Shown: piece after piece, positions 14,122-47,265 of the stretch
Layout of the letters: each line of letters starts with the position of its first letter
Numbering within the stretch: the stretch's first letter is position 1
Source of the DNA: Actinomycetota bacterium
GTDB lineage: Bacteria; Actinomycetota; Acidimicrobiia; Spongiisociales; UBA11373
DNA length: 56,811 nt
NCBI GenBank assembly: GCA_020444505.1
Contig: JAHLKU010000014.1
Coordinates: 1-56,811 of the forward strand
Direction: 5' to 3'
Made by a program: the position numbers and the translations under genes
The notes under the pieces: generated by a model
The model's database searches: none
Seen by the model: only the letters and a program-made list of their open reading frames with translations
What the model was told of the DNA's origin: nothing

Positions 14122-14127
14122 TACGCT
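14122..14127 (+). promoter_or_regulatory. -10 box (TACGCT) giving a leaderless transcript
   Basis: GGTACGCT ends 6 nt before the ATG at 14134, so transcription is expected to start at or next to the start codon. It lies in the 22-nt gap after the MMPL gene. Confidence 0.5.
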
Positions 14128-29623: not shown

Positions 29624-31390
29624 ATGGGCAGGCGCGCCGCACTCATCACCCTGCTGGTGACCCTCGCCTTCGCGTGGGGCTCACTGGCCCTCGTGCTGGC
29701 CACCGGCACCACCCCCAAGCTCGGCCTCGACCTGCAGGGCGGGTTCTCCGTCGTGCTGGAGGCGCCGGAGGGGACCGACTCCGGCGTGCTCGAGAAGGCC
29801 GTCGAGATCATGACCCGCCGCATCGAGGCGCTCGGCGGCGTCCAGGAGCCCGTGCTGAAGATCGTCGACGACCGCAACATCCAGGTGGAGCTTCCGGGCG
29901 TCACCGACCGCGACCGCGCCCGCGCCGCCGTCGGCACCACCGGCCAGCTGGAGTTCAGACCCGTCATCACCTACAGCTCGGTCGGCGTGAGCCCGCTGGT
30001 GCTCGAGGCCCAGCAGCAGCGCCTCACCGCCCAGCAGCTCGAGGACACGCTCACCGGCGAGACGACCACCACGACCGCCGCAGGCGGGGACACGACCACC
30101 ACCTCGAGCTCCACCACGACCACCGTCCCCGAGGAGCCGCTCGACCTCGCCACGGTGCTCCCCGACGGGGCCGTGCTCTGCACCCTGGACGCCGCCGGCG
30201 AGGTGGCCGCCGGCAGCGAGATCGGGTGCGTCCACCCCGTGACCGGCCTGTCGGTCGGCGACGACCCGCTGCAGGAGGCGTGGCTGGTGCAGCCCACCTC
30301 GGGCTACGTGTACCACGTCGCGCCGGCGTGCTCCCGGGCCGACTGGCTGGCCGACACCTGCACCGACCACCGGATCGACCCCGACGCCCCCGAGGGCGTC
30401 GAGAAGGCGCTGCTCGGCGCCGACCTCACCGACAGCCAGAAGCTGTACCGCAGCTCGGGCGGCGGCACCGGCCCGCTCGGCGTGTCGGGCGGCGGCACCG
30501 GGGAGTGGGTGGTGCAACTGGAGTTCTCGTCGGCCGGCGCCGACAAGTTCGAGACCGTCACCTCCGAGCTCACCCAGTTCGCCTACGGGGACCCGCAGCG
30601 GCAGTTCGCCATCGTGCTGGACGGCGAGGTGATCTCCGCTCCGTCGATGAGCCAGGAGTTCGCCGCCGGCGAGGGCATCTCCGGCGGCAGCGCCATCATC
30701 ACGCTCGGCGCCTCCACCGACCCGGAGCAGGAGGCCGACGACCTCGCGGTCGTGCTGCGCTACGGCGCCCTGCCGGTGTCGTTCGTCGAGAGCACCAGCC
30801 AGGAGGTGTCGGCCACGCTCGGGTCCGACTCGCTGTCCGCCGGCCTGGTGGCCGGCATCGGGGGCCTCGCCCTCGTCGCCCTGGCGATGATCCTGTACTA
30901 CCGGTTCCTCGGGTTCGTGAACGTCATCGGGCTCACCGTGTTCGGTTCGCTCGTCTACGTGGCCTTCGGCGTGCTGGGCGCCACCAGCGGCGTGACCCTG
31001 ACGCTGGCCGGTGTCGCCGGCGTGATCGTGTCGGTGGGCATCACCTCGGACTCCTACATCGTCTACTTCGAGCGCATCAAGGAGGAGGTCCACAAGGGCC
31101 GGTCGCTGAAGTCGGCGATCGATCACGCCTTCTCGCGCGCCTTCCGCACCATCCTGACCGCCGACACGGTGTCGTTCTTCGCCGCCGGCCTGCTCTACTT
31201 CCTGGCGATCGGGTCGGTGAAGGGCTTCGCCCTCGCGCTCGGCATCGCCACCGTCACCGACGTCGCCGTGGCGTACTTCTTCACGCGGCCTGCGGTGTCG
31301 CTGGTGGCCAGGACCCGCTTCGGTGAGGGCGGCCGGTTCAGTATCCGGGGCGCCACGGGAGCGGCCACGGCCAAGGAGGTGGCGCAGTGA
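29624..31390 (+). CDS. secD: Protein translocase subunit SecD with Thr-rich insertion
   Basis: 588 aa. SecD uses the proton gradient to help pull proteins through SecYEG. It shows an N-terminal span, LGLDLQGGFSVVLEAP, the paired P1-domain strands (VEIMTRRIEALGG, IQVELPGVTDRDRA), and the C-terminal six-span RND core with YYRFLGFVNVIGL and SVGITSDSYIVYFERIKEE. Between the P1 halves a low-complexity run (about residues 146-170) is almost all Thr and Ser, like the linker of the adhesin pilin at 38263. The segment after it, with three or more cysteines (CTLDAAG, CVHPV, CSRADW, CTDHR), also belongs to an enlarged outer domain. secF overlaps by GTGA. Confidence 0.95.
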   Translation: MGRRAALITLLVTLAFAWGSLALVLATGTTPKLGLDLQGGFSVVLEAPEGTDSGVLEKAVEIMTRRIEALGGVQEPVLKIVDDRNIQVELPGVTDRDRARAAVGTTGQLEFRPVITYSSVGVSPLVLEAQQQRLTAQQLEDTLTGETTTTTAAGGDTTTTSSSTTTTVPEEPLDLATVLPDGAVLCTLDAAGEVAAGSEIGCVHPVTGLSVGDDPLQEAWLVQPTSGYVYHVAPACSRADWLADTCTDHRIDPDAPEGVEKALLGADLTDSQKLYRSSGGGTGPLGVSGGGTGEWVVQLEFSSAGADKFETVTSELTQFAYGDPQRQFAIVLDGEVISAPSMSQEFAAGEGISGGSAIITLGASTDPEQEADDLAVVLRYGALPVSFVESTSQEVSATLGSDSLSAGLVAGIGGLALVALAMILYYRFLGFVNVIGLTVFGSLVYVAFGVLGATSGVTLTLAGVAGVIVSVGITSDSYIVYFERIKEEVHKGRSLKSAIDHAFSRAFRTILTADTVSFFAAGLLYFLAIGSVKGFALALGIATVTDVAVAYFFTRPAVSLVARTRFGEGGRFSIRGATGAATAKEVAQ

Positions 31391-32454
31391 GGACGCTGGC
31401 ACGCATCTACCGCGGCGAGCTCCACATCGACTTCGTCGGCAACCGGCGCCGCTGGTTCACCTTCTCGGCCGTCATCGTCACGATCTCGATCCTGGCGCTG
31501 CTGGTGCGCGGCCTCAACCTGGGCCTGGAGTTCAAGGGCGGGGTGAGCCTGGAGGTCGAGAACGTCAACGCCGTCACGGTCGGCGAGGTGCGCACCGCGC
31601 TGGAGTCGGCGGGGTTCCCCGACGCCAAGGTGCAGATCGTCACGGATCTCAGCGGGCGCGAGGACGTCCGGGTGGAGACGCAGGAGCTCGTCACCGACGA
31701 CCAGACCCGCCTCAAGGACGTGGTCGGAGGGATCACCGGCGGTGAGGTGGGCGAGTTCGATGCGGTCAGCGCGACGTTCGGTTCGCGTGTGATCAGCATC
31801 GCGATCCGCGCCCTGATCATCTTCCTGATCGCCGTGACCATCTACATCTCGTTCCGGCTGGAATGGAAGATGGCGCTGGCCGCGCTCGCCGCGCTGTTCC
31901 ACGACGTCATCTTCACCAGCGGCATCTACGCGCTGATCGGCTTCGAAGTCACGCCCGAGACGATCATCGCCGTCCTCACCATCCTGGGGTACTCGCTGTA
32001 CGACACCGTGGTGGTGTTCGACAAGGTGCTCGAGAACGTCAGCGAACGCGGCGAACGCCACACCTACGTGGCGCTGGTGAACATGTCCATGAACCAGGTG
32101 CTGATGCGTTCCATCAACACCTCGCTCACCAGCCTCCTGCCGGTGGGCAGCCTGCTGTTCGTCGGGTCGTTCCTGCTGGGCGCCACCACGCTGCGGGAGT
32201 TCGCCCTGGCGCTCTTCATCGGCATCGCGGTCGGCACCTACTCGTCGATCTTCCTGGCCGCCCCGCTGCTGGCGGTGTGGAAGGAGCGCGAGGACCACTG
32301 GCAGAAGATGCGCCGCCGCATCGCTCGCAAGGGCGGGGACGGCGAGTACGCCGCCAGGGGCGTGGTCGACGCCGACGAGGACCCCGCGGAGGTGGCCGCC
32401 GCCGAGGCGGCGGCCGTCGCGAGGGCGCCCCGCAAGCGACGGCGGAGGCGCTGA
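31387..32454 (+). CDS. secF: Protein translocase subunit SecF
   Basis: 355 aa. Six spans with the periplasmic domain after the first; signatures are LNLGLEFKGGVSLEV near the N-terminus and VLTILGYSLYDTVVVFDKVLEN in span 4. It partners SecD. The C-terminal tail is highly charged (DADEDPAEVAAAEAAAVA and then KRRRRR), a cytoplasmic extension common in actinobacteria. GTG start overlaps secD. Transcription of rel restarts just after its stop. Confidence 0.95.
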   Translation: MRTLARIYRGELHIDFVGNRRRWFTFSAVIVTISILALLVRGLNLGLEFKGGVSLEVENVNAVTVGEVRTALESAGFPDAKVQIVTDLSGREDVRVETQELVTDDQTRLKDVVGGITGGEVGEFDAVSATFGSRVISIAIRALIIFLIAVTIYISFRLEWKMALAALAALFHDVIFTSGIYALIGFEVTPETIIAVLTILGYSLYDTVVVFDKVLENVSERGERHTYVALVNMSMNQVLMRSINTSLTSLLPVGSLLFVGSFLLGATTLREFALALFIGIAVGTYSSIFLAAPLLAVWKEREDHWQKMRRRIARKGGDGEYAARGVVDADEDPAEVAAAEAAAVARAPRKRRRRR

Positions 32455-32463
32455 ACGGCGTCG

Positions 32464-32469
32464 TACAAT
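32464..32469 (+). promoter_or_regulatory. -10 box (TACAAT) for rel, leaderless on an upstream ORF
   Basis: CGTACAAT ends 6 nt before an ATG at 32476 and 62 nt before the rel start. Transcription should begin at or next to that ATG. Confidence 0.55.
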
Positions 32470-32475
32470 CCACGG

Positions 32476-32535
32476 ATGGACGCGGAAGTACGGCGCGCCC
32501 GGACCCCGTCCGGGCGCCGGGAGGAGGGCCGGTGA
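32476..32535 (+). CDS. Leaderless upstream ORF (19 aa) coupled to rel
   Basis: ATG 32476 lies where the TACAAT box predicts the transcript start. The ORF encodes MDAEVRRARTPSGRREEGR (six Arg in 19) and stops with TGA at 32533-32535, overlapping the rel GTG (GTGA). This is the same architecture as the ORF before alaS (47273-47329). Its product has no known homologue. It could be a leader peptide coupling rel translation to its own, or simply a spurious short frame. Confidence 0.45.
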   Translation: MDAEVRRARTPSGRREEGR

Positions 32536-34739
32536 CGGCCCCCGGGCGCATCGAGGAGCCCGGCCACGCGGCGACGGATGTCGCCCCGGTGGTCGAGGCC
32601 TTCCGCCGCCATCACCCCACCGTGCCGGTGGACATCATCGAACGCGCCCATGCGACCGCGGCGCGCCTCCACGAGGGGCAGATGCGCAAGAGCGGCGACC
32701 CCTACATCAGCCACCCGGTCGAGGTGGCCCGGATCCTCGCCGAGTACGGCCTCGACGCAGAGACGATCGCCGCCGCCCTGCTGCACGACACCGTCGAGGA
32801 CACCGAGATCGGCCTGGACGAGATCCGCGCCGAGTTCGGCGAGACCACGGCGACGCTCATCGACGGCGTCACCAAACTGGACCGGGTCCGCTTCTCCAAC
32901 CGTGAGCAGGCGCAGGCGGCGACGATCCGCAAGATGGTGGTGGCCATGGCCCGCGACGTGCGGGTGCTGCTGATCAAACTGGTGGACCGCCTCCACAACA
33001 TCCGCACCATCAGCCCGCTGCGTCCCGAGAAGCAGGAGCGGATCGCCCGGGAGACCATCGAGGTGTACGCCCCGCTGGCGCACCGCCTCGGCGTGCAGGA
33101 GATCAAGCACGAGATGGAGGACCGATGCTTCGAGATCCTCCATCCGCTGCGCTACGCCGAGATCGAGACCCTGCTCAGCCAGCGGGCGCCGCAGCGCAAC
33201 GCCTACCTGCAGGGCATCATCGCCGAGATCGAGGAGATGCTCGCTTCCCAGGGCGTCGAGGCGGAGGTGACCGGCCGGCCGAAACACATCTACTCCATCT
33301 ACCGCAAGATGGTGGAGGGGGGCCGCTCCTTCGAGGAGATCCACGACCTCATCGGCATCAGGATCGTCACCCACGAGGTGGCCGACTGCTACGCCGCCCT
33401 CGGCATGGTCCACACGCAGTGGCCGCCGGTCCACGGCCGGTTCAAGGACTACATCGCGATGCCCAAGTTCAACCTCTACCAGAGCCTCCACACCACGGTG
33501 GTGGGCCGCGACGGCAAGCCGCTCGAGGTGCAGATCCGCACCCTCGAGATGCACGAACGGGCCGAGCGCGGCATCGCCGCCCACTGGCGGTACAAGGAGG
33601 GGGCGGGCCCCGAGGTGGAGGCGCTGCGGGCCATCACCTTCCTCGCCGAGGAGTACGACACGCCCGAGGAGTTCCTGGCCGGGCTGAAGATCGATCTCTA
33701 CCAGGACGAGGTGTTCGTGCTGACGCCGGCCGGCGATGTCAAGGCGCTGCCGCGCGGCGCCACCGCGGTGGACTTCGCCTACTCGGTGCACACCGAGGTC
33801 GGCCACCGCTGCACCGGGGCCAAGGTCAACGGGCGCCTGGTGCCGCTGGACCGGCCGCTCGAGTCGGGCGACATCGTGGAGATCATGACCTCGAAGTCGG
33901 AGACGGAGGGCCCCAGCCGGGACTGGCTGGCATTCGTGCGGACGTCACGAGCGCACGCCAAGATCCGCCAGTGGTTCACCAGGGAGCGACGGGAGGCCGC
34001 CGAGTCCGACGGCCGCGAGCAGGTGCTCAAACTGCTGCGCCGCGAGGGGCTGGGGCTGACGGCAGCGACCCGCGACCAGCACCTGATGACCGTGGCCGGG
34101 GATCTCGGCTATCGCGACCTCGAATCGCTGCACGCCGCGGTGGGGTCGGGCAACGTCCAGGCGCCGACGGTGGTCGGGCGGCTGGTGCGGCTGGTGCGGC
34201 CCGACCAGGACGAGGACGACGACGACGACCTCGCCCCGGCCCGGACGCTGCGGCCGGGCGCGGCGATGCCGCCTCCCACCGGCGCCATCATCGTGGAGGG
34301 CCTCGACGACATGTGGACCCGGGTGGCCCGCTGCTGCTCGCCGGTGCCGGGGGACCCGATCGTCGGGTTCGTGACGGTGGGCCGGGGAGTGTCGGTGCAT
34401 CGAGCCGACTGCACCAACATCGGGGCGCTCGGCGACCGGCCGGAGCGCATGGTGGAGGTGCAGTGGGGGAGCGACCGGGACACGGCGTTCCGCTCCCGTC
34501 TGCAGATCGAGGCGCTCGACCGCCATGGGCTGCTGCGGGACGTGACCAACGAGCTCGCCGACCTCGGCATCGACATCGTCGCCTCGTCGTCGCTGCGAGG
34601 ACGCGACCGGGTCGCGGTGCTGCAGTTCGAGGTCGAGCTCTCCGACCGCGATCAGCTGGAGGTGGCGCTCGCCGCCCTCCGGTCGATCGACGGCGTCTAC
34701 ACCGCCTACCGGCTGGTGCCCGGCGGCGGGCCCGGCTGA
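32532..34739 (+). CDS. rel: Bifunctional (p)ppGpp synthetase/hydrolase (RelA/SpoT family)
   Basis: 735 aa, full long-RSH layout. HD hydrolase domain with HDTVEDT (H85, D86, E89, D90); synthetase domain with RPKHIYSIYRKM, EIHDLIGIRIV and RFKDYIAMPKFNLYQSLHTTV; then TGS (VFVLTPAGDVKALPRGATAVDFAYSVH), a cysteine-containing region (RVARCCSPVPGDPIVGFVTVGRGVSVHRADC) and a C-terminal ACT domain (from LQIEALDRHGLLRDVTNELADLGI). Both catalytic sites look intact. GTG 32532 is chosen for the GGGAGGAGGG site. An acidic patch DQDEDDDDDD-like run near residue 560 is unusual. In mycobacteria the next genes are ppi and MBL-hisS; here six pilin genes intervene. Confidence 0.96.
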   Translation: MTAPGRIEEPGHAATDVAPVVEAFRRHHPTVPVDIIERAHATAARLHEGQMRKSGDPYISHPVEVARILAEYGLDAETIAAALLHDTVEDTEIGLDEIRAEFGETTATLIDGVTKLDRVRFSNREQAQAATIRKMVVAMARDVRVLLIKLVDRLHNIRTISPLRPEKQERIARETIEVYAPLAHRLGVQEIKHEMEDRCFEILHPLRYAEIETLLSQRAPQRNAYLQGIIAEIEEMLASQGVEAEVTGRPKHIYSIYRKMVEGGRSFEEIHDLIGIRIVTHEVADCYAALGMVHTQWPPVHGRFKDYIAMPKFNLYQSLHTTVVGRDGKPLEVQIRTLEMHERAERGIAAHWRYKEGAGPEVEALRAITFLAEEYDTPEEFLAGLKIDLYQDEVFVLTPAGDVKALPRGATAVDFAYSVHTEVGHRCTGAKVNGRLVPLDRPLESGDIVEIMTSKSETEGPSRDWLAFVRTSRAHAKIRQWFTRERREAAESDGREQVLKLLRREGLGLTAATRDQHLMTVAGDLGYRDLESLHAAVGSGNVQAPTVVGRLVRLVRPDQDEDDDDDLAPARTLRPGAAMPPPTGAIIVEGLDDMWTRVARCCSPVPGDPIVGFVTVGRGVSVHRADCTNIGALGDRPERMVEVQWGSDRDTAFRSRLQIEALDRHGLLRDVTNELADLGIDIVASSSLRGRDRVAVLQFEVELSDRDQLEVALAALRSIDGVYTAYRLVPGGGPG

Positions 34740-34808: not shown

Positions 34809-36140
34809 ATGATCGGGCGCGTGAGCGCCGTGCGCCGTGAGGACGGCTTCACGCTGGTGGAGCTGATCGTCTCGCTGGTGATCGCCGTGATCCTGATGGT
34901 CGCGGTCACCGGCACCGTGCGCGGCGCATTGGCGAACTCGCGGGCCAACCGCTTCCGGCAGGAGGCGACCTCCGTCGCGATGGAGGCGTTCGAGTACAGC
35001 CGGAGGCTGGCGTGGGACAACCTCGCCATGGCGTCCATCGACCCGCAGGCGCCGCTGATCGACCCCGACGCAGGGGTCCTGCTCTCGTCCGAGACCGGCC
35101 TGCCCTCCAACGAGCCGCTCCTCCAGTGCCCCACCGGGGCGGTGCCGGCCAAGACCGTCTTCACGTCCGAGGACGTCACCTACACCGTGTGGCTCTACGT
35201 GACACAGGTGAACGCCTCGCTGCGCCGGGTGTACGCCCTCGTCGGGTGGGAGATGGAGGGGACGTCCTTCACGCACCGGTCGGAGAGCATCGTGTCGATC
35301 GTCTCCGCCGGCGGCATCACGGCCGGGGACCAACCGGTGTTCCCGGACGCCGCCATCGTGGCGACCGGCAACGTCTCGTTGGCGCCGGGCACCACGCAGA
35401 GCAGCCCGCCGACGGCGCACAGCGCCTCCATCTGGCTGAACCAGAGCTTCGCCAACCTGGACGCGGTGGTGGACGGCGACATCGTCGCCGGGGGTGTGGT
35501 CAACGCCACCCCGGCCAACGTGTACGGCACCATCGAGCAGAACGCGGGCACCCCCGTGAACGTGCCGACCGTGCCCGAGATCGAGGCGTGGCGGAGCGCC
35601 ATGCGTGCGGAGGCGGTCGCCGGCGGCGCCACCGGCGGCAACCTGGTGGTGTCGGGCGGCACGCTCACCGCCCCGATGTACGTGGACGGCACGCTGGAGT
35701 TGCAGGGGACGGTGCACATCGCCGGCAGCGGCCCCGTGTACGCCTCGGGACTGCTGCGGCTGCAGGCCGGCGCGGTCGTGACCGCCGACGGCGCCCACCT
35801 CGTGTCCGACGCCACGATCGTCTTCGAGACCGGAGCCGAGTACCGGGTGGCGGAGCCGACCGCGGGGGGCGTGGTGGCGTTCGCCGCGAGCACGCAGGCG
35901 CTCCTGCTCCGCGGCGGCGACGACGGCACCGTCCAGGGCCTGGCGTACGCCCCGTACGGGGGGATCCTGCTGACCGGCGCCGAATCGTGGCACGGGACGC
36001 TGGTCGCACACGGGTCGGCCGGGCTGGGCGAGGTGGCGATGTCCGGCGGCATCGGGGTGGTCTACCCCGCCAATCTGCTCCCGACCTCTGCGATCGTGAA
36101 CCCCCTGCGGCCCCCGCCGCCGGCGAGCGTGTGCGGCTGA
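34809..36140 (+). CDS. Prepilin-like protein with large beta-solenoid-like C-terminus (T4P minor pilin)
   Basis: 443 aa. A type III prepilin signal, REDG|FTLVELIVSL, has cleavage after G13, the +5 glutamate E18, and a hydrophobic helix to about residue 36. After a globular part (to about 175), residues ~180-443 are rich in short strands with regularly placed Gly (DGDIVAGGVV, VSGGTLTAPMYVDG, TLELQGTVHIAGSG) and include VQGLAYAPYGGILLTGA. That resembles the solenoid region of PilX-type proteins carrying GxxYAP motifs. It is far larger than a structural pilin, so a minor or tip subunit is likely. The ribosome site is weak. It is preceded by promoter A and is monocistronic. Confidence 0.8.
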   Translation: MIGRVSAVRREDGFTLVELIVSLVIAVILMVAVTGTVRGALANSRANRFRQEATSVAMEAFEYSRRLAWDNLAMASIDPQAPLIDPDAGVLLSSETGLPSNEPLLQCPTGAVPAKTVFTSEDVTYTVWLYVTQVNASLRRVYALVGWEMEGTSFTHRSESIVSIVSAGGITAGDQPVFPDAAIVATGNVSLAPGTTQSSPPTAHSASIWLNQSFANLDAVVDGDIVAGGVVNATPANVYGTIEQNAGTPVNVPTVPEIEAWRSAMRAEAVAGGATGGNLVVSGGTLTAPMYVDGTLELQGTVHIAGSGPVYASGLLRLQAGAVVTADGAHLVSDATIVFETGAEYRVAEPTAGGVVAFAASTQALLLRGGDDGTVQGLAYAPYGGILLTGAESWHGTLVAHGSAGLGEVAMSGGIGVVYPANLLPTSAIVNPLRPPPPASVCG

Positions 36141-47259: not shown

Positions 47260-47265
47260 TACCCT
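47260..47265 (+). promoter_or_regulatory. -10 box (TACCCT) for alaS, leaderless on an upstream ORF
   Basis: AGTACCCT starts 2 nt after the rarA stop and ends 7 nt before an ATG at 47273; the alaS ATG lies 60 nt downstream of the box. Confidence 0.5.

Follow-up and report, generated by a model that had tools for sequence, protein, structure and literature searches.

A leaderless 19-codon ORF in the place of apt as a likely entry cistron for rel in an order of Acidimicrobiia

Leaderless genes preceded by a TANNNT box are common in Actinobacteria (PMC3160421). In mycobacteria, Shell et al. (2015) described coupled leaderless small ORFs that are joined to the next gene by an RTGA junction, are over-represented, and keep this linkage without keeping the peptide (PMC4633059). 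Leaderless polycysteine ORFs that respond to cysteine are attributed to Canestrari et al. (2020) in two papers citing that work (PMC9031893, PMC9094748), and reporter assays have put termination-reinitiation at ATGA overlaps to the test (PMC6728339). Here we describe a mini-ORF ahead of the stringent-response gene rel in a window of 56,811 nucleotides, the whole of the analysed stretch of contig JAHLKU010000014.1, from an actinomycetotal genome of the class Acidimicrobiia. Judged by its sequence, the mini-ORF is of the coupled leaderless kind known from mycobacteria: the promoter box is placed for a start at an RTG codon, 19 codons are followed by a GTGA junction, and among relatives the linkage is conserved while the peptide is not. 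No report of leaderless coupling upstream of rel was found in the open-access literature. We consider it likely that the ORF serves rel as a leaderless entry cistron and took the place of apt, the gene for adenine phosphoribosyltransferase.

The features of the site are collected in Table 1. The original prediction had placed a TACAAT box six nucleotides before an ATG that opens a 19-codon ORF with six arginine codons and a TGA overlapping the GTG of rel, and both the box and the ORF were found exactly as proposed. The stretch of box, spacer and start reads TACAATCCACGGATGGAC in the window genome, and the ORF would encode the peptide MDAEVRRARTPSGRREEGR, every arginine codon of which is CGG or CGC. 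Two features had gone unmentioned, namely the Shine-Dalgarno-like GGAGGAGGG before rel and the position of the ORF at the place that apt occupies in relatives. The predicted duplex of the former with the anti-Shine-Dalgarno sequence (-11.9 kcal/mol) is stronger than that of 99% of shuffles, and the element is not conserved in the relative G001. The GTG at 32532 is the sole in-frame start of rel within about 230 nt upstream. By the domains given in Table 1, rel encodes a true long Rel of the bifunctional type, and secF adjoins upstream. The source genome is 2.54 Mb in size and 97.6% complete; at G000:C67:2374-2748 (-) it holds a further match to the HD portion of Rel, a weak one with 32% identity. 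The gene after rel (34809-36140, + strand) has an N-terminal methylation motif of pilin-like type and a weak DUF7305 match, and reads as a surface or pilus-type protein.

Table 1. Features of the secF-rel junction, in window coordinates
Feature	Coordinates	Strand	Remarks
secF, upstream gene	31387..32454	+	Pfam SecD_SecF_C, Sec_GG; stop TGA 32452-32454
-10 promoter box TACAAT	32464..32469	+	6 nt before ATG 32476; same position in 117/122 informative rel loci of the order
Leaderless mini-ORF, 19 codons + TGA	32476..32535	+	Occupies the place of apt; TGA 32533-32535; no apt match over the TIGR01090 cut-off in the genome
Shine-Dalgarno-like GGAGGAGGG within the mini-ORF, ahead of the rel GTG	32520..32528	+	Predicted anti-Shine-Dalgarno duplex
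GTGA, overlap of rel start codon and mini-ORF stop	32532..32535	+	RTGA in 6/7 mini-ORF genomes
rel, (p)ppGpp synthetase/hydrolase	32532..34739	+	GTG from 32532; Pfam HD_4, RelA_SpoT, TGS, RelA_AH_RIS, ACT_4

We compared the region upstream of rel in 127 genomes of the window's order, most of them draft assemblies. Five loci (G027, G105, G116, G121 and G127) are cut by a contig end, leaving 122 that are informative; for apt-bearing genomes, the in-frame start closest to the apt stop was taken as the start of rel. A TANNNT box lies 5 to 8 nt (exactly 6 in 90 loci) before the first start codon after secF in 117 of the 122, and that codon is RTG apart from a single TTG. G026 and G048 carry the box at 9 nt. 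The exceptions are three genomes of the genus g31 (G053, G084 and G118), where apt is missing beside rel and rel is off the leaderless site, with a longer leader and an AAGGGAG-type Shine-Dalgarno sequence. In shuffled sequence a TANNNT box falls 5 to 8 nt before a given start in 1.7% of cases. This figure holds for a single start; several in-frame starts were scanned for apt, for which the true chance is a few times higher. In about 50 of the 117 genomes the box, as TA[AG]NNT, starts at the codon that ends the upstream secF frame, and promoter and stop share bases.

Across both strands of the window just five TANNNT-N6/7-RTG sites occur, that of the mini-ORF included. Since such sites are this scarce, and since box and start are conserved throughout the order, transcription from the TACAAT box is likely. 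The other four sites, at 14122, 26119, 42240 and 47260 (all + strand), open ORFs of 164, 307, 215 and 18 codons; at least the three longer ORFs look like leaderless genes, and the 18-codon ORF at 47260 may be another leaderless mini-ORF. Outside the order, a scan of named genomes covered 62 apt-bearing loci and found the box before apt in only 11, of which two or three belong to the same class; in Streptomyces there are typically hundreds of nucleotides from the apt stop to the conserved part of rel. The arrangement is thus not general beyond the order.

The first gene after the box takes three forms. It is apt in 83 loci, with a stop that usually overlaps rel (as in ATGACTGA or ATGGCTGA) and otherwise lies near the rel start; it is rel itself, in frame, in 31; and in seven it is a mini-ORF of 9 to 22 codons whose stop falls on the rel start. 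Five of the mini-ORFs belong to the window's family (19 codons in both G000, the window genome, and G001, 21 in G002, 22 in G010 and 9 in G007), and two belong to another family (20 codons in G014 and 19 in G059). Within the window's family apt starts at TACAAT-N6-ATG, as the mini-ORF does (for example TACAATCCCTGGATGGAC in G004). All eight genomes of the family with apt at this place have an apt match over the TIGR01090 cut-off, and none was found over that cut-off in the genomes G000, G001, G002, G007 and G010; apt is likewise absent from G006, whose rel is fragmentary. Relocation of apt to another part of the window genome was considered and rejected, as no match in that genome exceeded the cut-off. 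Because the mini-ORF genomes lack apt while their sisters carry it at the exact spot, behind the same promoter and start, the mini-ORF of this family is most likely a derivative of apt, the 5' remainder left after loss of the gene. The clearest case is G007, in which the mini-ORF ends with an 8-nt ATGGCTGA overlap identical to the apt/rel overlap of G004. In G000 only the start (ATGGAC) resembles apt. Elsewhere in the order, G078, G086, G064 and G101 have no apt beside rel and have one over the family cut-off at another place in the genome; there the gene would therefore have been moved or regained, not lost.

In a tree of Rel proteins G007 falls within an apt-bearing clade, apart from the pairs G000/G001 and G002/G010. 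A single origin of the five mini-ORFs was rejected when they were constrained to one clade (AU test, p = 1.3e-10), and apt was therefore lost at least twice in the window's family. A tree of the other family nests G014 and G059 in a clade in which rel is leaderless in every other genome, one of these being their sister. Here the start of a leaderless rel probably became detached as a mini-ORF of its own, and the same anatomy would have been reached by a second route.

What persists through these changes is the start and the junction. All seven mini-ORFs stop on the rel start, six through RTGA and the seventh (G007) through the 8-nt overlap, and within genera their lengths differ by whole codons (21 against 22, and 20 against 19), which keeps the frame. 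Between G000 and G001, which represent two species of the window's genus, the block from -25 to +9 around the ATG is identical at 30 of 34 positions, as against 29 of 47 in the rest of the ORF, where the differences fall on first, second and third codon positions alike (7, 7 and 6). The pooled mini-ORFs have GC contents of 0.80, 0.70 and 0.72 at the three positions; the corresponding values for rel are 0.73, 0.44 and 0.95. As change is spread evenly over the codon positions and GC3 is not skewed, the peptide appears to be under no visible selection. The idea of the original prediction that a leaderless ORF is coupled to rel in translation is thus supported, since the promoter/start block and the stop/start overlap both persist in relatives, conservation being the test that the prediction itself had proposed.

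The strongest rival is that the 5' AUG and the short ORF simply survive from apt, that it makes no difference whether they are translated, and that rel is initiated from its own Shine-Dalgarno sequence GGAGGAGGG. Such a sequence is indeed strong in G000 and G010, the peptide is unconstrained, and an open frame of 19 codons is expected by chance at 81% GC (P = 0.91; P = 0.6-1.0 for open short frames). Against a passive remnant of this kind stand the retention of box, spacing and 5' RTG, the survival of the frame through insertions and deletions, and the position of all seven stops on the rel start; moreover, no Shine-Dalgarno sequence above shuffles was found in G001, G014 and G059, and rel there therefore probably relies on coupling. 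We regard this rival as unlikely, though it is the one that keeps the most weight. The stops on the rel start and the whole-codon changes fit selection for coupling, an argument of limited strength because an open frame is likely at such GC, because only about four independent lineages are involved, and because in the ancestral apt/rel junction both of the other frames often contain a TGA. The overlap of mini-ORF and rel may even have been inherited rather than selected, since apt/rel junctions such as ATGACTGA hold TGA in both frames other than that of rel, so that a coupled ORF would be the outcome of most deletions.

The probable role as an entry cistron can be set out as follows. A promoter at the 3' end of secF would give an mRNA that opens, with its first base or bases, at the start codon of the gene that follows. 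In most genomes of the order this gene is apt, with a stop that overlaps rel or lies directly against it. In the window's lineage, deletion of the apt body would have joined the apt promoter and 5'-terminal AUG to the start of rel, leaving a short ORF that ends in a TGA with bases in common with the rel start codon. No Shine-Dalgarno sequence would be needed for ribosomes to enter at the 5' AUG, and after translating the 19 codons they would terminate at GUGA. Re-initiation on rel would follow, aided in G000 by the embedded GGAGGAGGG and in G010 also by a Shine-Dalgarno sequence; in G001, G014 and G059 coupling would bear more of rel initiation. The anatomy of the site, the conservation of box and start, the replacement of apt and the absence of any sign of selection on the peptide can be read from the compared genomes; from these we infer the transcription start, the translation of the ORF and the re-initiation on rel. 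With the good Shine-Dalgarno sequence of G000, rel could be initiated directly there, and readthrough from secDF may be an additional supply of rel mRNA.

A broader reading, which we offer tentatively and with some doubt, is that the whole order is under selection for leaderless entry into rel. A 5'-terminal start would then be kept and coupled to rel whichever gene the interval from secF to rel loses or gains, and the alarmone enzyme would owe its synthesis to leaderless initiation, a mode that could carry on in starvation when Shine-Dalgarno initiation declines. A rival reading, in which the mini-ORF as a leaderless entry tunes rel to the state of initiation by keeping or raising its translation when canonical initiation falls, is improbable. 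It is favoured by the retention of the leaderless start in front of apt, mini-ORF and rel alike, and by the rise of leaderless mRNAs in starved Mycobacterium tuberculosis (PMC3898074); against it, leaderless starts occur widely in Actinobacteria (PMC3160421) and do not by themselves imply regulation, and the genus g31 has lost the leaderless start. For the sensing of initiation-factor or ribosome state, which the original prediction had offered beside arginine, the comparison gave neither support nor contrary evidence.

The original prediction also suggested that the ORF senses arginine supply, with ribosomes stalled on the six arginine codons controlling rel. In its favour are the six arginines among 19 codons in the window genome; this part of the proposal nevertheless failed in the comparison. 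While the stop/start overlap was kept in relatives, peptide sequence, length (9-22 codons) and arginine content were not, the seven mini-ORFs having 6, 4, 3, 2, 1, 6 and 5 arginines. The count in the window is within composition (shuffle mean 3.8, P(>=6) = 0.16), all its arginine codons are common ones, and nonsynonymous change is unrestrained. The seven share no conserved run of codons for one amino acid, and no terminator-like site or hairpin was found downstream; an attenuator was accordingly rejected for want of a terminator. The leader RNA folds no better than its shuffles (z = -0.64). A conserved RNA structure was rejected as well: a 10-bp inverted repeat and a hairpin with GUGA in its loop can be drawn in G000, with a fold not beyond shuffles and a sequence that G001 does not share. 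Arginine sensing and attenuation are argued against by an arginine count that is both unconserved and within composition, by the missing terminator and by the unexceptional fold, and we hold an arginine-responsive leader peptide to be very improbable. Least credible of all is an unused box, with rel expressed only by secDF readthrough or from another promoter: the genes are tightly packed, and yet box and spacing recur in 117 of 122 loci, where chance would give 1.7%, even as the gene behind them varies.

Leaderless apt, mini-ORF and leaderless rel form a natural series in which the leaderless start outlives the gene it served. The series suggests one simple way in which the numerous coupled leaderless small ORFs of Actinobacteria that lack conservation may come about, each being what is left of a first cistron after its deletion. 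A further indication is that leaderless initiation may feed rel in the whole order, a testable proposition that bears on how the stringent-response enzyme is synthesized under stress.

The locus resembles several known systems in part. As in the leaderless genes of Actinobacteria, a TANNNT box lies about 12 nt before the start codon; there it usually opens a full-length gene and here a mini-ORF (PMC3160421). Stop and start share bases as in termination-reinitiation at ATGA, for which the upstream gene is normally a full gene rather than a 19-codon ORF (PMC6728339). The polycysteine attenuator ORFs, as presented in the papers that cite them, are likewise short leaderless ORFs ahead of an operon; they have conserved runs of cysteine codons and sense that amino acid, whereas no residue is conserved in the rel mini-ORF. 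The closest likeness is to the coupled small ORFs of mycobacteria (PMC4633059), with which it shares a 5'-terminal RTG, a length within 5-50 codons, the RTGA junction and a linkage conserved without the peptide. It differs from them in lying upstream of rel, in belonging to Acidimicrobiia, in an origin traced to the loss of apt, and in a translation that is here predicted from sequence. What is new is the locus itself, the order-wide persistence of a leaderless start ahead of rel, and the evidence for an origin by loss of the first gene.
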